DNA of 64,000 bases from Corynebacterium ciconiae DSM 44920 (GTDB lineage Bacteria; Actinomycetota; Actinomycetes; Mycobacteriales; Mycobacteriaceae). Positions 1 through 11,908 of this stretch are shown piece after piece (position 1 is the stretch's first letter; each line of letters opens with the position of its first letter). The stretch is from the NCBI RefSeq assembly GCF_030440575.1, contig NZ_CP047189.1, positions 2,294,001 to 2,358,000 on the forward strand, written 5' to 3'. The notes below the pieces were generated by a model. The model was not told where the DNA came from and did no database searches. It worked only from the letters and a program-made list of their open reading frames with translations. A program made the position numbers and the translations under genes.

Positions 1-16
1 ATGTCCTTGGTGTAAC

Positions 17-3000
17 TCACAACAAACCACCACCGAATCCGGAGAACTCATCATCATTGTCATCGTGGGCAGAGCTGAAGCCTGTAGGCATCGAGCTGGT
101 GGTTTCCGGCTGGGCCGCCACCCGCTTCGCCTCCTCGAGCAAGCCATGCAAAAGATTCGCCATCTCCACCACATCGGCGGCGAAGTCGCGATAGAAGGGC
201 ACCTTGGACGCCCGCTCCCTGCTGGTCGGGTGCGCCCAAGACTTATCCACCGAGGAGCTACCGGGAAAGCCCAGATCATCCATTGGGGCCAGCATCTCTG
301 CGGTGTGCAGCGCGCGCTCCAGGTGCTCCTCCACCATGGCGGCACGCTCGGAGATGCTCTCGCCACGGATGGCGTTGCGCTCCGCTGGCCAGACGCCGGT
401 GCGGAAGAAGTTAGCCAAAGTCGTGACAGCCGGGTGTCGCAGCCCGCCATCAACGTTGCTGGCCTTCTCGGGGGAGTCGTCGAAAAGCGCGCGCAAAGCC
501 CAATAGGGATGCAGGGAAGCTCCGGGGGCGCCGCTGCGATCCCGTTCGTGGCTATTGGCATACGCCAGCAGGATCGATTCCAGCACCGCCGGCATCCAAT
601 CCAACTCATTACGCATCTCGGCTGGACCGGTCAGCATCGGCTGCGGGAAGTGATACCAGCTCTCCTGGGCCTGGCCGGCGCTGTGATGGCCGGGCAAGCG
701 CCCATAGACGTGAGCTGCGGCCTGCATAGTCCCCCGGTCGGTAACGAAGACTCGGCCGGTAGCCATGCCCAAGAGCCAGCCACCCACCAGCGCCTTGCGC
801 TCCTCATTACTCAAAGGCAATGCCGCCTCAAGAGTGTGCGTGCGGCGCAAATTCCAGAAATCGGAGCGATTCTGGCTGGCCTTCCACTCCTTCGCAATCT
901 GCGGCAGCAGGGAGCTGAACACAATCGGCGAATAATTCGGGTAGGAGCCGAAAATATCGATGCGCTGAATATTGGTGCTGTCGCGCAGAGCATTATCGAA
1001 CTTGGTGCGCGACTGCCCCTCGATCTTGCTCGAGCTCAACGTGCTCTCTAACTCGGCGGCCACGCGCTGATCCTTGAAAGGAATCTCCGAGAAGGAATAG
1101 CGATAGGTCACGCCCTGGCCGTGCACCGCCTGCACCATGGTGGCATCCACCGCCGCCAAGGGGCGGGACAGGGACAGGGCCTTGGAGAACTCGCTGCGGA
1201 GTCGTGCGATGCGCTGCTCGTACTCGGCGTCACTCAGCATCTCATCTTGGGTCATGTAGCTGCGCAGATCTGCGGAGATGAAGCGCTCAAAACTCTCTCC
1301 GGGGCGCATCACCCAGATGCGGGCGCGCTGCAAAAGATCGCGGGGACGAATCCGCGCCGCGAACACAGCATTCGACGTTTCGCGGCTCTCCCCGGAATTA
1401 TCGGGGTTGGTGCGCAAATGCTTGCTGGCCCAGCCTGCACGGTTACCGCTAGAGATCTCGCCGGCGGCGCGGGCCAAGGTGTTGCGCGGTGCCTTGATGG
1501 CGTCGGTGGTTTCCCACTCGCCCTTAATGATGGAGCGGGTGATACGGGAGGTGGCCTCGTCGAGATCAGAGACGTTCGCGTCCTCGCCAGAAACAGCCTC
1601 CAACAGCTGTGCCTCGAAATCCTCCGGGAAGTTATCTACCTCGGTGATCACGATCTCGTTCACCGAGCCACGGAAACGATCACTGACCTTCTCATCATGC
1701 GGCCGCGGCCACGCTGCCGGTTCTTCCGTGGCCACATCCGCCAAATCGAGGGTTGATTCCTTGGCCGCATCGGCGGCGCGCACATCCTTGTGGGCGCGAT
1801 CCAACTCATCGCGCAGGCGGCGTAGTACCCCAAAGCGGAAGTCCTCCAACACCGGACTGAGAGTACGGGCCAGCTCCACCAGCATGGCGGTGCGCAGCTG
1901 CGGGCTGTAGCAGCTCAGCAGCTGCTCCACTACGGCATCGGCATTATGAATACGCTTCTTGCCGGTCACCGGGTGCAGCGCCTGGTCTGCATCCGAAGGA
2001 CGAGCCGCGGGGTCAATACCTTGGTGGTTCAGGATGAACTGCTCGCTGCCTGGCAGCAGCTTGTCCTTCATGATCACATCCAGCTCGGCGAGCATCTTCT
2101 CCACATAGGGCAAGCCCAACCGAGACAGTTCCTCCTCGGCTTCCGCGAGCATCTGATCTGTGATGAAATCCGCCCAGCGATACACCGCGCTATAGGCTGC
2201 GCGGCGCATCACCCTGCGCAAGTCGTAGCTGAGGTCAGAGCTACCCATCACGCTCTCCACCTCGGCGGCCCACTCCTGGCCCTTCTGCCCCTCCACGGGG
2301 GAAGGGATCTTCGAGCGCAGCGCGGCCTGGGACTCACCGACCGCAGCCTCCAGTTCAGAGTGGAAAACCACTTCGTACCAGTTGCGGATGATATCGGTGG
2401 TGGCGGCACCCGTAACCAACTCCGGGTGAATCCTCATCCGCTCCATGCTCCCCGGCATGCGCTCGGCCAAGCGTTCACGCAACTGCTCCTCGGCGGTGGA
2501 GTGATTGCGCGGATCGATGTGGCCGCGCAGCAGCTTATCGAAGCTGGCCCTAGCGATGCGCTGCGCAGCGTACTCCTTGTACTTATCGCGGCCCATGCTG
2601 AGCTGGGCGTATCCCATGGATCCCCACGGCAGGCCCGTCCACTTCAACTTCTCGTTGTCCGCCCAGCCCAGATAGGAACGCTTCGCATCGGGCGCTCCCG
2701 CATTGCCGAGATCATATTGCACGAAATCAGCGGAGGCCTGCTCGGAATAGACCAGACCAGACAGGGCGCGGCCCAAGCCGCGATAGATCTCCGTGGGCGA
2801 GCCCTCGCGACCGAAGCGGGCGCGTTCCTCACCCATGCGGCTGCCGATGGGAAAGAGTCGCGCAAAGGTGGAGCCCTGATCCGCAGTGGCGATACCCAGT
2901 GCTCGGTACAGGGAGGCATCAGCCGGGGCGGCCGCACCGGTCTGGGCAGCAAAAACCTCGCCGAACATGGCCAAAGCATTGGGCCAAGCGCCACTCATCG

Positions 3001-3679
3001 CGTCCTTAGGCAGCGACTCAAACACCTCGGGGGTGAGCAGGAATACCGCCGTCTGCTCCGGCTTGGCATTCGGCAGCCCGGCGAGCACGCGGCACACATC
3101 CAAAAACATGGAGGCACCGGAACCACCAGCCATGGAGGAAACCACCAAGATCGTGGGATCCGATTCGCTCTTATCTGAGGAAAAGCCCTGAATCTTGCGG
3201 TTGAGCTCATTGAGCTCCACATTGGCATCCGAGGTGTTCATATCCTCGAGCGCCTTGCGCAGCTCTTCGCGGATCTTCTCCAGCTTGGGCAGAGTAAGCA
3301 TGCGGCCAAGGGTGCGGCGCTGAGCGGCGCCGGCGGAAATAGGAAGCTCGATAGCGTTAGGCACCCGCGGCGCCCAAGTGGCGATGTCCTTCAACCCATC
3401 GCCGCGAGCAAGCTCCGCAGAGACAGCAGCATCGAACGTGCGGTACGGCTGATTGCTACCGATACCGATATACCGCCCGCCGGCCTGTTCCACATTGGCT
3501 AGCCCGCTGGGCCCGTCCTCGGCGGCGAGCGGAGCATCAATGGAGACAAACTGCCACGCCTTGGGCAGCGTGTCTCGGCCCGGCTCTACCTCTCGGATCA
3601 GGGCCTTAAGCTGGTCCATCATATAAGCGAGGGTCTTCGCTCCGGAGCCACCGCAGCCGACTACCAAAAACTTCCGCAT
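17..3679 (-). CDS. Tubulin-like GTPase domain protein (Tubulin_2 family)
   Basis: Predicted cytoplasmic nucleotide-binding protein of 1220 residues related to the bacterial tubulin-like family (Pfam Tubulin_2). Seen: the first strand MRKFLVVG runs into a glycine loop GCGGSGAKT (residues 8-16), and a second glycine motif AGGSGASMF (184-192) stands where tubulin/FtsZ carry the GGGTGSG signature. The remaining ~1000 residues have no motif I recognise, look mainly helical, and end in an acidic then glycine-rich tail (DDNDDEFSGFGGGLL). No signal peptide or membrane span. A good ribosome site (AAGGAG) precedes the ATG. It is the last of three close minus-strand genes, 55 bp after a VWA protein gene, so a joint function is likely. 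Whether it polymerises, and its cellular role, are unknown. The system may continue past the left edge. Confidence 0.8.
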   Translation of the reverse strand: MRKFLVVGCGGSGAKTLAYMMDQLKALIREVEPGRDTLPKAWQFVSIDAPLAAEDGPSGLANVEQAGGRYIGIGSNQPYRTFDAAVSAELARGDGLKDIATWAPRVPNAIELPISAGAAQRRTLGRMLTLPKLEKIREELRKALEDMNTSDANVELNELNRKIQGFSSDKSESDPTILVVSSMAGGSGASMFLDVCRVLAGLPNAKPEQTAVFLLTPEVFESLPKDAMSGAWPNALAMFGEVFAAQTGAAAPADASLYRALGIATADQGSTFARLFPIGSRMGEERARFGREGSPTEIYRGLGRALSGLVYSEQASADFVQYDLGNAGAPDAKRSYLGWADNEKLKWTGLPWGSMGYAQLSMGRDKYKEYAAQRIARASFDKLLRGHIDPRNHSTAEEQLRERLAERMPGSMERMRIHPELVTGAATTDIIRNWYEVVFHSELEAAVGESQAALRSKIPSPVEGQKGQEWAAEVESVMGSSDLSYDLRRVMRRAAYSAVYRWADFITDQMLAEAEEELSRLGLPYVEKMLAELDVIMKDKLLPGSEQFILNHQGIDPAARPSDADQALHPVTGKKRIHNADAVVEQLLSCYSPQLRTAMLVELARTLSPVLEDFRFGVLRRLRDELDRAHKDVRAADAAKESTLDLADVATEEPAAWPRPHDEKVSDRFRGSVNEIVITEVDNFPEDFEAQLLEAVSGEDANVSDLDEATSRITRSIIKGEWETTDAIKAPRNTLARAAGEISSGNRAGWASKHLRTNPDNSGESRETSNAVFAARIRPRDLLQRARIWVMRPGESFERFISADLRSYMTQDEMLSDAEYEQRIARLRSEFSKALSLSRPLAAVDATMVQAVHGQGVTYRYSFSEIPFKDQRVAAELESTLSSSKIEGQSRTKFDNALRDSTNIQRIDIFGSYPNYSPIVFSSLLPQIAKEWKASQNRSDFWNLRRTHTLEAALPLSNEERKALVGGWLLGMATGRVFVTDRGTMQAAAHVYGRLPGHHSAGQAQESWYHFPQPMLTGPAEMRNELDWMPAVLESILLAYANSHERDRSGAPGASLHPYWALRALFDDSPEKASNVDGGLRHPAVTTLANFFRTGVWPAERNAIRGESISERAAMVEEHLERALHTAEMLAPMDDLGFPGSSSVDKSWAHPTSRERASKVPFYRDFAADVVEMANLLHGLLEEAKRVAAQPETTSSMPTGFSSAHDDNDDEFSGFGGGLL

Positions 3680-3734
3680 CTTCTTCGTTTCTCCTTGTAT
3701 CTACCGTGTGTTCTGCCGTGTCAGCGTGAGGGTG

Positions 3735-6416
3735 CTAGGAATCCCAGCCTCGGGAGCTATCGGACCAGCCGCCCGAGGAGGGCCGATTGCGGGGCTGCTC
3801 ATCGTTCCAGCCCGCTGACCAGTCACTATGGGAGCCATCTGCCGCACCGCCGGTGCTCGGCTGGTCCCAACCTCCCGGCGAACCAGCGCTGGATGACCAG
3901 GTGCTACTGCCACTCGGCTGGGAGGACTCGCTCGGCCCACCCCACGTGGCTGCCCCAGCAGCCGGCGCGGCCTTCTCCGCGTTCGCCTCCCCCGCCCCGC
4001 CGGCGCTGTCGCTGGCTGGGCTGTCGATGTCTTGAGCCAGGCGCGGCAGTTTCTCCCGCACTGCGCGTTCCATGCTGGCGAGGTTCTCGTCAGTGGCGAA
4101 GCGATCGGCCATCACCACCACGGAGCCGACTGTGCTGTTTCCTGGCTGCGGGTAGAACACCCAGTGCTGGGCAAGATCCAGCGGCAGCACAGCTGCGCCC
4201 TTGGCGCGGCGAGCATCATCGGCAACCGATGGTGCTGCGGTGGCCCGTGCCTGCGCGGAGCTGAAGGGATTGAGGCCTAGTGCAACCTGGAAGCTCTTGG
4301 AGCCGATGGTGGCGCGGCGGCCGCTCACCATGGATCCGGTGGTCGCCATGATCTCGCCGCGGTCCACGTGGAACGGCCGGCCCGTATTGGTACGGATCAC
4401 CTGGTGGTCCTTGATCTCCACCGGGATGGTGAGCGCGTAGATCTTCTTTCGGGTCAGCGTGCCACTGAGGTATTTGAATAGATACAAAATGCCCAGCGGG
4501 ATGAGCAGACCCAGCAGCAGCGCCAGCACCATCACCAGCGAGAACACGGTGGTGTTTACAGGTGCGCGCATGGAACCGGTGAGAGGAATATCCACCTCGG
4601 CGGTGCGGCCGTCGCCGTCTGTGCTAGTGAGGGTGAGGTGCAGGGTGCCGGCAATGGGACCATCAGCCAAGTGTTCACTGTCGATGGTGAACGACAGTGT
4701 GCCGTCCTCTCCCTTCCCAAGCTGCAGGGCAGACGCATCGCTGTGCACCTCAACACCCTCGGCTCCCTCGGGCACGGCACTGAGGGTGGCTCCCCTCAAG
4801 GTGGCTTCACCGGGGCCGGTGATGGGGATCGTGAACTGGGCGTGGGTGTCCTCCACGGTCACCTGCATCTCGCCGGGCACCACCGGCATATTCACTGGGG
4901 AGATCGATACGGGGTATTCCGCCACGATGGGCGACAAGGCAGTGCCTGGGGCGTCTCCTGTGCCCTTGGTGGTGATCTGGCTGCGCACCGCGATGGTGCC
5001 GTTGACGGGCTGGTCGATGGCATCCAAGGGCACCTCCACCGCAGCGGCATCCGCAATGGATTGCGGCTGCCCCAACGGCACTGGCGCAGCACCATCGGCA
5101 CCGATGAACGCGGCCTCCACTTGGGCATCGCCCTCGAGCTTCACGGGCTCATTGGCTCGGTTGAGAAGCTGCACCTGCAACGGGGTGTCGGTGCTGATAC
5201 CGGTGTTTTCTCCCTCGCTCAGCGCGGGGACATCCAGGTGCAGTCCGGGCAGGATCTGCATCTTCACTTTGTAGCGGCCGTCGGCTGCTGGGGAGTCGTA
5301 GCCAAAGGTCCACTCCCCCGCCCATGCATCGGAGTCATTCTTGCGTAGCTCGGCGTCGATCATGCCGGGCAGAACTCGGTTCTCGCCCAGCATTGTCAGT
5401 TCGGCGCCGGCCAGATTCTCGGTGCCTGAACCGTGGAGGTCAATGCGATCACCGCGGGGGTTGATGAGATAGGGCTGCACGCCCTCGTCCGTGCCGCGCT
5501 GCTGCGGTTGCGCCTCCAAGCGGATCTCATCGATGGAGTTATCCAGTACGAATCGGAAGGTGTCCGACATGCGCAGTTCATCGCGCGCGGAACCAGCATT
5601 GGGCAGAATCCCGCGGAAGGCGCTGAATAGTCCTGCCACGTCCTCGGTGGCGTTGATGAAGGCGCCATTGGGGGCCGCTTCACCGCAGTTGTCGGTTTCG
5701 GCCACATCGCGCAGCAGTTGCTCGGGCGAGTCGGTGCCACGCGGAATAAGGCCCACAGTAAAGAGCTGCACCCCGGATTGGCGGAGGTGATTCACCGGCC
5801 CATTCGCGGAGCACAGCTGCTGGCTGGCGGTGGCGGCATCTTCGCCGGGGGTGGTGATGAGTCCATCGGTAAAGAAGAGGATGGCGCGGCAGGAGTCGGC
5901 ATCGCTGTGGGCGGCCATATCCGCTCCCGCCCCGCGCAGCGCGGTGCCGTAGTCGGTGTAGCTCTGCTGGTCACGATCCGCGAAAATCTCCGCGGTAGAG
6001 GCAAGCTCGTCGGCGTCGGTGGCCACATTGGTCCAGTCGCCATAGGCCTCGGGGGCAGATTCATAGGTCTCGCCGAAGCCGGCCAGTTTCACGTTAATGG
6101 TGGCATCCACATCGTCAGCGGCGATCCCGAGCTGGCGGATGAGGTCTTGGGCGGCGGCTACGCGCACCGCGTCTGGGTCGGTGGCGGGAAGATCCTCAAA
6201 CCCGGAGAGAGATTGGGATTCATCCACCACAAACATCAGATCTGCGGACTTTTTCTGGGCGATACAGGAGTTCAGCCGCGCGATATTGTCGGCCGCGACA
6301 GGCGAGGGAGCCGGCTGCGCAGCCACTTGGGGTGCTGCGGCCACACCGAGCGTCGCCGCGAAGGCGAGCGCTGCACATCGACGAGCCATTCCACGGCGCT
6401 GGGCGGGGTGGTTCAC
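3735..6416 (-). CDS. Secreted, membrane-anchored VWA domain protein
   Basis: An 893-residue protein with an N-terminal signal sequence (hydrophobic ~14-30, likely cleavage near VAA-QPA, residue 33). A VWA domain follows with a metal-site motif DESQS (residues 65-69) and a later SDADSCRAILFFTDG stretch. After ~350 residues of beta-rich extracellular sequence comes one strong membrane span (~620-650), then about 240 cytoplasmic residues. The last ~80 of these are low-complexity and rich in Trp, Ser, Gly and Asp, ending in SSRGWDS. The topology puts the VWA domain outside and the tail inside, next to the tubulin-like protein encoded just downstream. Start is GTG; an ATG nine codons in is the alternative. 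VWA domains usually bind proteins through a metal ion. The ligand here is not evident. Confidence 0.8.
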   Translation of the reverse strand: MNHPAQRRGMARRCAALAFAATLGVAAAPQVAAQPAPSPVAADNIARLNSCIAQKKSADLMFVVDESQSLSGFEDLPATDPDAVRVAAAQDLIRQLGIAADDVDATINVKLAGFGETYESAPEAYGDWTNVATDADELASTAEIFADRDQQSYTDYGTALRGAGADMAAHSDADSCRAILFFTDGLITTPGEDAATASQQLCSANGPVNHLRQSGVQLFTVGLIPRGTDSPEQLLRDVAETDNCGEAAPNGAFINATEDVAGLFSAFRGILPNAGSARDELRMSDTFRFVLDNSIDEIRLEAQPQQRGTDEGVQPYLINPRGDRIDLHGSGTENLAGAELTMLGENRVLPGMIDAELRKNDSDAWAGEWTFGYDSPAADGRYKVKMQILPGLHLDVPALSEGENTGISTDTPLQVQLLNRANEPVKLEGDAQVEAAFIGADGAAPVPLGQPQSIADAAAVEVPLDAIDQPVNGTIAVRSQITTKGTGDAPGTALSPIVAEYPVSISPVNMPVVPGEMQVTVEDTHAQFTIPITGPGEATLRGATLSAVPEGAEGVEVHSDASALQLGKGEDGTLSFTIDSEHLADGPIAGTLHLTLTSTDGDGRTAEVDIPLTGSMRAPVNTTVFSLVMVLALLLGLLIPLGILYLFKYLSGTLTRKKIYALTIPVEIKDHQVIRTNTGRPFHVDRGEIMATTGSMVSGRRATIGSKSFQVALGLNPFSSAQARATAAPSVADDARRAKGAAVLPLDLAQHWVFYPQPGNSTVGSVVVMADRFATDENLASMERAVREKLPRLAQDIDSPASDSAGGAGEANAEKAAPAAGAATWGGPSESSQPSGSSTWSSSAGSPGGWDQPSTGGAADGSHSDWSAGWNDEQPRNRPSSGGWSDSSRGWDS

Positions 6417-6461
6417 TGTAATTTGTCGATCCTTAGTTCAACGGCAACGGGCATGTGTGCG

Positions 6462-7061
6462 CTAAGCGCCAACGGTTTTGGATACGGCGAGGGCGAATTC
6501 GATCGCGGTTATCACCACGCTCACTGCGCCTAGTGCTAAGGCTGCGCGTAACAACGCGGTTTGGGCCGTGTTTTCCACATAGAAGCTCTCTGCTTTTCGA
6601 CGATTATCTGCAATCTTGTGAAACCCAATGGCCACAAAAGTCAGAATTCCGGCGAACACCCACCCCACGAGCGCGAGGGTACGGAAGCCATCGTCGGTCG
6701 CAGTGCCGCCCATTACTGGGGCGGCCACAGCGCAGAGAATGCCGATCAGGGAGGTCACGCCAGCGATAATCAGCAGCGGCCAGGGCCCTGAAACGGGGTT
6801 CAGCCGGGGTTGGGTGGCCGCCGGTGAATGCTGCTGCGCTCCCCATTGATCGCCCGAATCCCATGGCGACTGCCCTGATGGCCCCGGCGCGGACGAGCCT
6901 TGAGCAAAGCTGGAGCCGCCACCGAAGCTGGACGAGCCGGTGGCGGCTGAAGAAGAGGAGGGGGCAGAATCCCAGCCCCGCGGCGCAGTATCGCCGCGGG
7001 AGGATGCGGGCTGATCAGACCAAGAGTTGTTGTAATCCGATCCGAAAGTGGGATGTGACAC
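6462..7061 (-). CDS. Small membrane protein with low-complexity Trp/Ser/Gly N-terminus
   Basis: A 199-residue protein that I cannot assign to a family. Residues 1-~85 are low-complexity (Ser, Gly, Pro, Asp, Trp) and include PRGWDS and SPWDSGDQWG. Residues ~95-195 hold about three membrane spans (LLIIAGVTSLIGILCAVAA; LALVGWVFAGILTFVAIGF; ALALGAVSVVITAIEFALAV). Start is GTG with AAGGAG about 10 bases upstream. It is the first gene of the minus-strand cluster with the VWA and tubulin-like genes (gaps of 45 and 55 bp). Its N-terminal tail resembles the cytoplasmic tail of the VWA protein (both carry WSD...SSRG...GWDS), which suggests the two share a partner. Function unknown. Confidence 0.7.
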   Translation of the reverse strand: MSHPTFGSDYNNSWSDQPASSRGDTAPRGWDSAPSSSSAATGSSSFGGGSSFAQGSSAPGPSGQSPWDSGDQWGAQQHSPAATQPRLNPVSGPWPLLIIAGVTSLIGILCAVAAPVMGGTATDDGFRTLALVGWVFAGILTFVAIGFHKIADNRRKAESFYVENTAQTALLRAALALGAVSVVITAIEFALAVSKTVGA

Positions 7062-7170: not shown

Positions 7171-7551
7171 TCACTGTGGAAGCCAGAATGTTGTGCATTC
7201 TTTTTTTGTTTCGCACTGACGATCGAGCATCATCCCGAGAAGCTCATAATCGACTGGTTGAGACCAAGGCAGGCGCACAAGATTGGGTGTGTAATCCGCG
7301 CCCCTAGCGTCCAACTCGGCCGCCAGTTCCGCCATAATGTGCGGCTCGGCCGCCACCGAAAGATGTCTGGTGGCGGCCGAGAAACCGAGAATAAAAGTTT
7401 TGCCCCACAGCAGCATCGGCTGGTTCCACTTCATGGCAAGCCGCAGCTGTGGGGCTCGCTGCATGGCCCAGTCAGCCACCTCGCGCAGGCGCTCACGATG
7501 GGCGGGGGCGCTCAGGTTAGCGAGGTAGTCCTGAAAGCTGTTGGCGGTCAT
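7171..7551 (-). CDS. DUF1801 (YdhG-like) protein
   Basis: A 126-residue protein of the DUF1801/YdhG-like fold. The family is sometimes described as iron-chaperone-like, but the function here is unproven. Seen: the typical opening in which a short helix is followed by ADWAMQRAPQLRLAMKWNQPML and a WGKTFILGFSAATRHLSVA strand pair. Length fits the family. The ATG lies four bases after the stop of the GH76 gene upstream, so the two are almost certainly translated from one message. No signal peptide or cofactor motif. Confidence 0.75.
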   Translation of the reverse strand: MTANSFQDYLANLSAPAHRERLREVADWAMQRAPQLRLAMKWNQPMLLWGKTFILGFSAATRHLSVAAEPHIMAELAAELDARGADYTPNLVRLPWSQPVDYELLGMMLDRQCETKKECTTFWLPQ

Positions 7552-7555
7552 GGCA

Positions 7556-8779
7556 CTATCCGTTCAGGCCGAGTTCCTCGCCTACCTCGGAGCTAACCCG
7601 CGCCGCGGCCTCCATGAGCATCCAGCCGCTGAGCTGTACCGACAAATCCCTCTCTGGGATACCGGAGCTGGTCAGTGCCCCGCCAACCTTGGCGGAGACC
7701 ACCCCGGCATTGCGCGGCAGCTGGGCGTCCTCGGTCCACTCCGCGGGGAACACGGGAAGCCCATCGATTTCGAGGCGATGGCCCCACGCTGCCTCCGCTG
7801 AGGCCAGCACCAGCCGCGCGGCAATCTTCTTAGTGGAGGTGTTGCGCCCGCCGTCGCTGGGCAGGTTCACCGCCACCTCGGCAAGGTAGCGGGCCAAGAT
7901 GCCCTTGAACAAACCGCCGTCGCCGCCACGGTTAACGGTGGTGATAGCACCGCGATCATCGGCCAGCTCCTTGGCCACGGCATGCACCAACTGCCGTACC
8001 CGCGCCACATAGTCCATGATGTCCTCGGCGCGGTCGGCATCCTCCAGAGTCTCAATACGCCCGTGGGGCTCAAGACCTGCCTGGCTACGCAGCTGCTCAA
8101 TGATGGCCATACACGCGCCCATCATTACGCCCTGGCAGTACGGGTGGATGGGCTTGACTATCTCGGGGCCATGCATGCGCATACGCACCCCGTCCATGAT
8201 GAGGCCCTTCTCATTGAGCAGGTTCTCAAACACCCAATCCGTCATAGTGCGGGCCTCATCCACATGCCCGGTGCGGGCAAGCATGATGGCGGCGGGCCCG
8301 TTGGTGGGCACGTTGAAGAAGTTTTCCCCCTCCCGCCACGGCAGCACCCCTAGGCTCGGATCCACATTGGCGCGCAGGTTCTCTTCCAGCTCGGCGGCGC
8401 AGGTAGGCGCAGAGAGCGAGTGCACGGAATCGATACGGCGCAGTGCCAAGGCGAGCCACGCTTTGTCGTCGTAATACTTATTACGGCTCAGTTTGTAGAT
8501 ATTGCGTACCCTGATCCCGCGAACGGTGTGCATCAGCCGCCTGCGCCGCGGCCGGGTGGCGGTGCGCAACGCCGCATCAATCTGGCAGTCCACATAGTGT
8601 GCCTGCCACCAGTAGTGCCAGTGCAGCATGATCTTTTCCTTGACGCCGCCAGGCCACGCCACCTCGGCCAGGTTGGTGCGCGGCAACGCCCACAGCCCAG
8701 TGGCGTGACGATCCTCAATCGCTGCCTCCGCTAGATCAGCGCGGTGAATCCACTTCTCGGGCACGGTGGTTGTCCTCAT
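7556..8779 (-). CDS. Glycoside hydrolase family 76-like protein, apparently cytoplasmic
   Basis: A 407-residue protein matching actinobacterial members of GH76 (alpha-1,6-mannanase fold, an all-helical (alpha/alpha)6 barrel). Seen: aromatic-rich HWHYWWQAHYVD near residue 53 and the adjacent acid pair YYDDKAW (Asp104-Asp105), which corresponds to the catalytic DD of GH76. Later segments NVPTNGPAAIMLAR and NEKGLIMDGVR also fit. There is no signal peptide or membrane span, so unlike the usual secreted mannanases it would act inside the cell. Its substrate might be a mannosylated lipid or glycan precursor, which is inference. It is translationally coupled to the DUF1801 gene. The 217 bp upstream of its ATG separate it from the RNA methyltransferase. 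Confidence 0.8.
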   Translation of the reverse strand: MRTTTVPEKWIHRADLAEAAIEDRHATGLWALPRTNLAEVAWPGGVKEKIMLHWHYWWQAHYVDCQIDAALRTATRPRRRRLMHTVRGIRVRNIYKLSRNKYYDDKAWLALALRRIDSVHSLSAPTCAAELEENLRANVDPSLGVLPWREGENFFNVPTNGPAAIMLARTGHVDEARTMTDWVFENLLNEKGLIMDGVRMRMHGPEIVKPIHPYCQGVMMGACMAIIEQLRSQAGLEPHGRIETLEDADRAEDIMDYVARVRQLVHAVAKELADDRGAITTVNRGGDGGLFKGILARYLAEVAVNLPSDGGRNTSTKKIAARLVLASAEAAWGHRLEIDGLPVFPAEWTEDAQLPRNAGVVSAKVGGALTSSGIPERDLSVQLSGWMLMEAAARVSSEVGEELGLNG

Positions 8780-10243: not shown

Positions 10244-11908
10244 CTATTTAGTGGTGGGGTTGTCATCCGGCTCGCCGTCCGGGCGCGGGGAGCCATCGCT
10301 GCCCTCCTGCTCTGGGGCATCCTCGGCAGCGGTGTTGTTGAGCCTCGCGGCAAACTCGGGCGTGAAACTGGTGCCCAGCTCAGCGGAGATGTCATTGAAA
10401 ATAGAGGAAGACATCCCCGTATCGCGCAGTACCTTGGTGCCATCGAAGTTGCTTGTTTCGCGCTCTTCACCAGAAGCGATAGGAGCGATCGCATCAGTGC
10501 CCACCCCGCGAGAGCTCACCACTCCGCGGGAGACTTGCTGGGCACGCGAGGGCAGTTCCACGGGCTCTTCTGGGCGGGTAACCACCGCGGGCCGCGGATC
10601 AGAAAACTCCTCTGGCACGCTCACTTCATCCAACTCAATGGCATCAGCCACCGGGCGGGAGGGGTCGCGATCCTCTGGTTTCAGATCCAGCAATGCGCCA
10701 CGGCGGGGCGGAAGGGCGCGGGCGGCGTCGGCAAGCATCGAAAGCGGCTGACACACCGCATCCCAATCATCCGACTGGGAGTGGGGCTGGAACTGGGCGA
10801 GCACCCAGTTACCCTCGCACCACACGGCATCGACAGACTGTGGCAGCGCCTCGAGGGCCGCGTGGACGCGCTCATCGAGGAAGCGCTCGGCCACATCGAC
10901 TTCGCTGGCAACAACCCGCAGATCATTGAGCTGACCTGCCGGCAGCAGATCCTCACCCGTGCCGGGGGCATCGTCTACCCTGCCCCGGCGAGCATCGATC
11001 ACCACATCAGAAACCGAGCCCCGGCGCATCGCCATCACGCACACCTCGCCGAGATCCACCACGTGCATCTCATGTCCACAGGCAGTACCACTAACCACGT
11101 TGCGAGCCACCGCGCCGGCCGCAGCTGCGCCGCGCGACCACTCATCGCTTAGGAATTCATCGCTCTTAGCAAAGAAATAATCGTGTTCTTTGGCCCATTC
11201 TCGCCGCTCGCGGCGGGCAGAGTTCATAAAACCTGGCAGCGAAAAGCGCCGCTTGGCCGCCGGTGAGCTATCGCCGTTGGGAGCGGGGGGTACGTCATCA
11301 TCGGCCCGCTCATCCTCGTCTGCATGCGAAGCATCCTCAGTATCGAAAGCCTCGTCATCACCGGAAGGCTCCTTGGGCTGGTGGACTCCCTCTTCCGCGG
11401 CGGGGAGGTTATTCAGCGCCTCCTCGGTGTCCACATCCACCTCGGTTTCCCCCGCGCCGTAGACGGCATTCACACCATCCGGCTGCGGGGAGTCAGGCTT
11501 CGGTGCATCCAGCTGCGCGGCATCTGGCTGCTGTTCTCCATCCCCCTCCAGCTCAGGCGCGGCCTCCTGCTTGACCTCGGCAGGACCGCCGGCATCCCGC
11601 TCGGACTCAGGCTCTTGTACCGCCTCGATGTGCTCGGCAGGCGTCGGTGCTATCGGCGGCACTTCGGGGGCGGGGCTGGGCTCAGGGCCCGCTGTGATGC
11701 CAGCGTCCGGCGGCTCGGGGGCATCGATGGTGGGATCACTCAGGGCGGGCTGCTCAGCGGCGGGGGCGGCGGTAGACACTGCTGCCCCATCAGTAGGCTG
11801 AGCGCTCGTGCGCTGGGTGGTGCGAGTGCGGCGCTTGCGATCCACCACGAGCAGCCACAGGCCGACGAGGAAGAGGATCGCGGCAACGATAAAGATAACT
11901 ACGTTCAT
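10244..11908 (-). CDS. Membrane-anchored acidic protein with conserved C-terminal domain
   Basis: A 554-residue protein found as a conserved hypothetical next to pyrE in corynebacteria. Residues 3-22 form a single membrane span (VVIFIVAAILFLVGLWLLVV) followed by basic RKRRTR, giving an N-out, C-in anchor. Residues ~30-210 are a disordered Pro/Ala/Glu/Asp-rich linker. Residues ~220-480 look folded (starting RRFSLPGFMNSARRERREWA; later ACGHEMHVVDLGEVCVMAMRRGSV and DAVWCEGNWVLAQF). The last 60 residues are again disordered. I do not recognise a catalytic motif. The gene lies 38 bp after the rhodanese-like gene and 7 bp before pyrE. Function unknown. Confidence 0.75.
   Translation of the reverse strand: MNVVIFIVAAILFLVGLWLLVVDRKRRTRTTQRTSAQPTDGAAVSTAAPAAEQPALSDPTIDAPEPPDAGITAGPEPSPAPEVPPIAPTPAEHIEAVQEPESERDAGGPAEVKQEAAPELEGDGEQQPDAAQLDAPKPDSPQPDGVNAVYGAGETEVDVDTEEALNNLPAAEEGVHQPKEPSGDDEAFDTEDASHADEDERADDDVPPAPNGDSSPAAKRRFSLPGFMNSARRERREWAKEHDYFFAKSDEFLSDEWSRGAAAAGAVARNVVSGTACGHEMHVVDLGEVCVMAMRRGSVSDVVIDARRGRVDDAPGTGEDLLPAGQLNDLRVVASEVDVAERFLDERVHAALEALPQSVDAVWCEGNWVLAQFQPHSQSDDWDAVCQPLSMLADAARALPPRRGALLDLKPEDRDPSRPVADAIELDEVSVPEEFSDPRPAVVTRPEEPVELPSRAQQVSRGVVSSRGVGTDAIAPIASGEERETSNFDGTKVLRDTGMSSSIFNDISAELGTSFTPEFAARLNNTAAEDAPEQEGSDGSPRPDGEPDDNPTTK

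Follow-up and report, generated by a model that had tools for sequence, protein, structure and literature searches.

Described tubulin-like families and the locus of C. ciconiae

Tubulin-like proteins of the FtsZl1 family with vWA partners were catalogued more than a decade ago, and membrane remodelling was suggested as their role (Makarova and Koonin 2010, PMC2875224); cgR_2627 of Corynebacterium glutamicum was named by a reviewer of that paper. The actinobacterial GAP1-N2 systems, as outlined in the sections on them by Kaur et al. (2020, PMC7159879), have a single tubulin that carries a helical extension, together with a membrane vWA protein and an FNIII protein; a role in conflict is predicted for them. 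In the relevant part of a 2023 survey of the FtsZ/tubulin family, Tubulin_2 proteins serve solely as tree root (PMC9871819). No functional tests of the family were recognised in the open-access literature, judged by titles and the beginnings of abstracts. The locus described here lies at the left end of a stretch of 64,000 nucleotides of Corynebacterium ciconiae DSM 44920 (the window; G000:C1:2294001-2358000 within a 2.58-Mb genome), where three genes encode a tubulin-fold protein (tub), an exported VWA protein by prediction, and a small membrane protein (stm).

The chances are about even that these three genes form the front part of an actinobacterial, tubulin-bearing GAP1-N2 GTPase system that works as a docking hub with a conflict-type output. 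A preliminary description of the window had taken them for a three-gene envelope machine that no known pathway explains. Much of what it saw stands: three close minus-strand open reading frames (ORFs; 17-3679, 3735-6416 and 6462-7061) with gaps of 55 bp (tub/VWA) and 45 bp (VWA/stm), the glycine motifs of tub, a VWA protein with a signal peptide, one span and an inner tail of about 240 residues, and a small multi-span protein. The tubulin fold is found in the predicted structure, the three genes co-occur in other genomes, and the membrane-spanning arrangement is supported by predicted topology. A self-contained machine would agree with the adjacency and co-occurrence of the three genes; it is contradicted by the structure of the operon, which holds 8-9 genes, with five or six more to the left of the window in an order conserved in the genus, outside the view of that description. 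Such a machine is therefore highly improbable, and the neighbourhood had already been catalogued in 2010 and 2020.

The tubulin and its operon

The features in the window, all on the minus strand, are:

17..3679, minus: tub, tubulin-fold and presumably GTP-binding protein, 1220 amino acids (ORF call, Pfam)
2510..3679, minus: nucleotide-binding half of tub, residues about 1-390 (Pfam stretch 5-379, invariant T1/T4 residues; border deduced)
1160..2494, minus: long, mostly helical insert of tub, residues about 396-840 (DSSP of the model and structural-match ranges; borders deduced)
542..1144, minus: putative activation-type second half of tub, residues about 846-1046 (model strands and VIA ranges)
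20..43, minus: C-terminal peptide of tub, last 8 residues, with a family-wide match to the g949 C-terminus (permutation tests; match weak in this genome)
1..20, minus: first codons of g949 (949 amino acids, two hydrophobic stretches), which leaves the window and runs to G000:C1:2291171 (L002:11171-14020)
3735..6416, minus: VWA protein, 893 amino acids, predicted exported (ORF call, Pfam, hydropathy, residues of the metal ion-dependent adhesion site, MIDAS)
5688..6242, minus: VWA domain, residues 59-243 (PF00092; D65, S69, T154 and D184 invariant in 25/25)
4461..4568, minus: transmembrane-like hydrophobic stretch of the VWA protein, residues 617-652 (hydropathy script)
3738..4460, minus: predicted cytosolic tail of the VWA protein, residues 653-893, ending GWSDSSRGWDS (tail match with stm)
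6462..7061, minus: stm, small membrane protein, 199 amino acids, three hydrophobic stretches (ORF call, hydropathy; in 31/33 genus loci)
6795..7061, minus: N-terminal tail of stm, residues 1-89, with SWSD and RGWDS like the end of the VWA tail (tail comparison, hydropathy)

Residues 5-379 of tub match Pfam Tubulin_2 (E 2.6e-41; 142.5 bits, curated cut-off 27), and the T1 (GCGGSG) and T4 (SMAGGxGAS, x varies) motifs are identical in all 41 aligned homologues. The tubulin matches of its structure model end between residues 928 and 1073 with just 311-372 residues aligned, which points to a long helical insert, and DSSP places strands of the second half at 859-863, 906-912, 977-980, 988-993 and 1007-1010. 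Judged by this model, tub belongs to the tubulin superfamily and is a full tubulin fold, with both halves around the insert. At the inferred T7 position (PLAxV-like, then D, N or S) residue 845 is D, N or S, and no T7-type acid is invariant there among the 41 homologues, suggesting that a tub polymer or switch probably hydrolyses slowly and persists until it is remodelled.

The VWA protein matches PF00092 over residues 59-243 (E 2.6e-6). Its D65, S69, T154 and D184, invariant in 25 of 25 homologues, are presumably the MIDAS residues. According to a simple hydropathy script, it has a signal-like stretch at 14-33 and a second one at 617-652, leaving a tail of 241 residues, and stm starts with an 89-residue tail followed by three hydrophobic stretches. 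No Pfam family matched stm at E≤0.1.

To the left of the window the same strand encodes g949, the start of which overlaps the tub stop by 4 bp, a 677-aa (amino-acid) protein, a 583-aa GAP1-N2 protein, a 328-aa protein, a 345-aa P-loop GTPase and a 159-aa membrane protein (s159). The GAP1-N2 protein (L002:7341-9092) matches PF20013 with 57.5 bits (cut-off 24), and GAP1-N2 is also present in L102, L107 and L118. The GTPase motifs GxRxxGK, DxAGED and KFD are invariant in 27 homologues, 24 of which match PF19993 (DO-GTPase) at E≤1 (best 4.5e-12). In the 677-aa family, 2 of 19 members show a weak fn3 (FNIII) match (best E 0.015), and HRDC was not matched at E≤1 by any of the 19. The tub gene and a membrane vWA protein are both present, as expected of the GAP1-N2 tubulin theme. 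The GAP1 gene is the fastest-changing one of the operon in a comparison with the nearest relative (one genome pair), with 60% identity and a ratio of nonsynonymous to synonymous substitution rates (dN/dS) of 0.31; over its residues about 300-450, identity falls to 20-42%. The hydropathy script also flagged residues 163-182 of the GTPase, which were taken for a buried strand. Basic-aromatic tails (KKRGFLRWFK, RRGFFRRR) occur on the GTPase C-termini in L033 and L034 and on the 677-aa-protein C-termini in L043, L054, L055 and L062; they look like membrane-binding ends, carried by different operon proteins in different lineages.

Matched tails of the operon proteins

Within many genomes tub and g949 end in matching residues, and from one genome to another the two ends vary together. 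Examples are MPGEDLF/MPGEDLF (L037), LNDLDDTF/LSDLDETF (L047), EFGGLV/DFDGLV (L061), LPSFGDGLV/LPDFGEGLV (L119), DDEREFL/TTDREFL (L101) and DTTGIL/DPTGIL (L105). For the main test 45 loci were fetched, of which 40 were kept together with the own genome after exclusion of duplicate genomes (L073, L075, L077), a fragment (L074) and a locus with an incomplete g949 (L063). Over 25 representatives at <70% tub identity, own pairs had a mean tail score of 15.16 and crossed pairs one of -0.73, and none of 20,000 permutations reached the own-pair mean. Across all loci kept, g949 was the best tail partner of tub in 32/41 and came first among all ORF ends in 29/40.

The test was repeated outside the genus on a subset of the positive genomes. 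From 41 loci fetched later, 11 without tub at the hidden Markov model threshold and two without a complete partner (L081, L082) were removed, leaving 28, 24 of them from other genera; L086, with partial matches, was also excluded. The 24 loci again gave 0/20,000 permutations and the 14 most distant likewise. In L089, L105 and L106 the partner is present as two ORFs, the second of which was used, a choice made after the tails were seen.

The end of the VWA tail and the N-terminal tail of stm form a second pair, for which 0/10,000 permutations combined over 25 loci reached the observed match (e.g. NPFTPPQ/NPFTPPE in L060). In this test the stm start codon was set by rule, and some starts as well as the VWA end in L070 may be wrong.

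Shared ancestry or composition might produce such matches as an artefact. Repeats of G, S, P and F abound in the tails of the VWA protein and stm and could be exchanged between neighbouring genes; such composition is a greater worry for the VWA/stm match than for that of tub and g949. For the latter, permutation within two clades (26 loci, L072 excluded) again gave 0/20,000 combined, at widths 3 to 10, and 11 control pairs of operon protein ends showed no tail match in the main permutation test. Different codons are used at 49 of 78 identical residues in 18 of the 40 loci, selected from those with similar tails, so the tub/g949 match looks like selection on the protein rather than copied DNA. 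An artefact thus appears improbable.

The docking model is nevertheless weakened by several of these comparisons. In nine of the 41 loci g949 is not the single best partner (the own genome, L052, L056, L058, L062, L064, L065, L066 and L072), and the match in the own genome is weak (GFGGGLL/GFPGPSTLL), g328 scoring 6 and g949 1. Nine of the 24 non-genus pairs (L093, L094, L097, L100, L102, L110, L111, L113 and L115) score ≤0 at width 6. The VWA/stm match is weaker in one clade alone, where 503 (width 5) and 196 (width 6) of 10,000 permutations reach it. The simplest reading of the two sets of tails is that of two common docking pockets, one for tub and g949 and one for the VWA protein and stm, which would join the tubulin platform to an outside sensor; both tail pairs lie on the cytosolic side according to predicted topology.

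A candidate second tubulin

The operon probably holds an overlooked second, membrane-bound and degenerate tubulin relative in the form of g949, as judged mainly from its structure model. The top 28 VIA rows for g949 are all tubulins whose alignments cover both halves in order, though VIA only re-ranks the Foldseek list, and the L120 gene in the g949 position passes the Tubulin_2 cut-off. Alternatively, g949 would be an unrelated helical membrane protein, the tail of which matches that of tub via a common partner or a tail-recognising protease; this concerns a single step and is compatible with the other explanations. It has a real, if lesser, chance of being right: g949 has no Foldseek match at E≤0.001, and the non-significant Foldseek list is headed by helical proteins. 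Furthermore, profile comparison shows no significant similarity between g949 and tub (best P 0.035), and of the 35 families found for 31 g949 members, the 25 shown do not include Tubulin_2. A three-member set of 'second gene' proteins (G396, G279, G953) gave short, co-linear, weak hhalign matches, with P 0.003, 0.0065, 0.24 and 0.45 against tub and 0.0015, 0.19 and 0.41 against g949. Sequence proof of g949 as a tubulin was not reached by the profile comparisons.

Three g949-matching proteins (L084:8434-11685, P0123 and P0124) carry a trypsin-like domain near the C-terminus, which is plausible as an effector. By eye, the domain of P0123 has seemingly lost its catalytic residues and that of P0124 seemingly keeps them. 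In L105:9341-12953 and L106:7029-10638 the g949 homologue appears as a pair of successive ORFs, both of which match the g949 profile; the tail of the second resembles that of tub in L105 and does so less closely in L106.

Distribution and possible role

Tubulin_2 was found in 36 of 121 Corynebacterium genomes. Exactly these 36 also have the GTPase, and 35 of them have the VWA protein. The exception is G092, an assembly that is 77% complete; of its tubulin domain no more than the end was found, located at the edge of a contig. For comparison of the loci, 33 of the 35 other positive genomes of the genus were fetched, and the genes found have the same order and strand in all 33. The VWA protein, tub and g949 are present in 33/33, stm in 31, the 677-aa protein, GAP1 and the GTPase in 31, and s159 in 14; the 328-aa protein was found in 5/33 by similarity and in 30/33 by similarity or position. 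Of 12 named loci found, that of Corynebacterium sp. 74A is closest (91% over tub). Outside the genus, Tubulin_2 was found in 10/296 genomes of a phylum draw and 28/394 of a class draw, the own genome counted in both. In distant loci, from several other actinobacterial families, the gene following tub is often a g949 match by profile; 5 of 9 distant loci tested gave a VWA match at E≤0.02, and Gordonia (L072) has stm.

The proposal of Makarova and Koonin leads to a possible, if tentative, alternative: a housekeeping-type machine that remodels the membrane or serves the envelope and plays no part in conflict, the exported VWA protein controlling how tub filaments shape or organise the membrane. 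In the phylum draw, GAP1-N2 was found in just 1 of the 10 Tubulin_2-positive genomes, the own one, and GAP1 is therefore not obligatory; G404 (L084), for instance, lacks a GAP1-N2 match and keeps VWA, tub and g949. The control genome of C. glutamicum matches both Tubulin_2 and GAP1-N2. All nine genes are under purifying selection (dN/dS 0.07-0.31 against one close relative). The composition of the operon is flat and like that of its flanks, no phage record carries the system, and only 2 of 72,556 plasmid records do, both from Rhodococcus. The GAP1-N2 counts, the flank-like composition and the phage and plasmid records also count against a conflict system, as do the failure of the own GTPase by itself to match DO-GTPase at E≤1, and the PADLOC scan of tub, VWA and stm, the operon proteins scanned, which gave no match. 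The housekeeping explanation is at odds with the patchy presence within one genus (36 of 121 genomes), with flanking genes that vary between lineages and with the trypsin fusions. Patchiness and fusions lean towards a defence output, and the GAP1-free genomes and chromosomal composition towards envelope remodelling. Recent transfer by phage or plasmid was rejected on the record counts and the flat composition, and a known defence model on the PADLOC result for tub, VWA and stm.

Two genes next to the operon are unlikely to belong to it: the DUF1801 gene (window 7171-7551; 0/33 genus loci) and the GH76 gene (window 7556-8779; 1/33), counts that are limited by fetched stretches extending just about 1-2 kb beyond stm. 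GH76 also adjoins the operon in L066. A few genes upstream of the operon, window 10244-11908 (minus strand) encodes a 554-aa protein with a partial match to the trehalose monomycolate transport factor TtfA (72 bits, cut-off 450).

Proposed mechanism

In the GAP1-N2 reading preferred here, tub would bind GTP and assemble with, or be capped by, g949 as a degenerate, membrane-anchored tubulin. Both would offer the same C-terminal peptide to one common docking pocket, in the manner familiar from FtsZ, and the VWA protein and stm would offer their own common peptide to a second pocket, so that the sensor outside would be linked to the platform inside. Assembly would be gated by the DO-GTPase together with GAP1, and the output would most likely be an alarm at the membrane surface answering envelope damage or phage attack. 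A wider generalisation, held with somewhat less than even confidence, is that Actinomycetota possess a two-tubulin apparatus, in which a membrane-embedded, nucleotide-dead g949 nucleates or caps the soluble GTP-binding tub, a co-evolving tail peptide serves both and a second matched peptide ties the exported VWA receptor and stm to the same platform, the whole being a signalling or effector-release device and not a cytoskeleton. If true, the pairing of a membrane-bound degenerate tubulin with a nucleotide-binding one would put the tubulin fold to a new use. For a family catalogued since 2010, the matched tails give a direct entry, namely which proteins should meet at one pocket.

Comparison with known systems

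The operon resembles the GAP1-N2 tubulin theme, as set out in the sections of PMC7159879 that treat it, in having a single tubulin with a helical extension, a DO-GTPase, GAP1-N2, a candidate FNIII protein and a membrane-bound vWA protein. That account gives actinobacteria one tubulin and firmicutes two, whereas here a probable second, membrane-bound tubulin, g949, and matched tails are found; the HRDC fusion that it describes was not seen in the operon studied here. With FtsZl1, as portrayed in PMC2875224, the locus shares a Tubulin_2 domain above the cut-off and a vWA partner with a signal peptide. T6-H7 is not confidently placed in that portrayal, whereas the model presented here has both tubulin halves around the helical insert, and unlike its vWA operons, this one has no OmpA-type protein by Pfam scans.

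The long helical insert, the lack of a conserved T7-type acid at the inferred position and partners unlike those of FtsZ set tub apart from CetZ, tubulin and FtsZ. FtsZ ends in a short peptide that follows a disordered linker and docks membrane adaptors such as SepF. The tub tail is likewise a short peptide behind a disordered linker, with a presumed docking role; unlike that of FtsZ, it is common to two proteins of one operon and changes in step between lineages.
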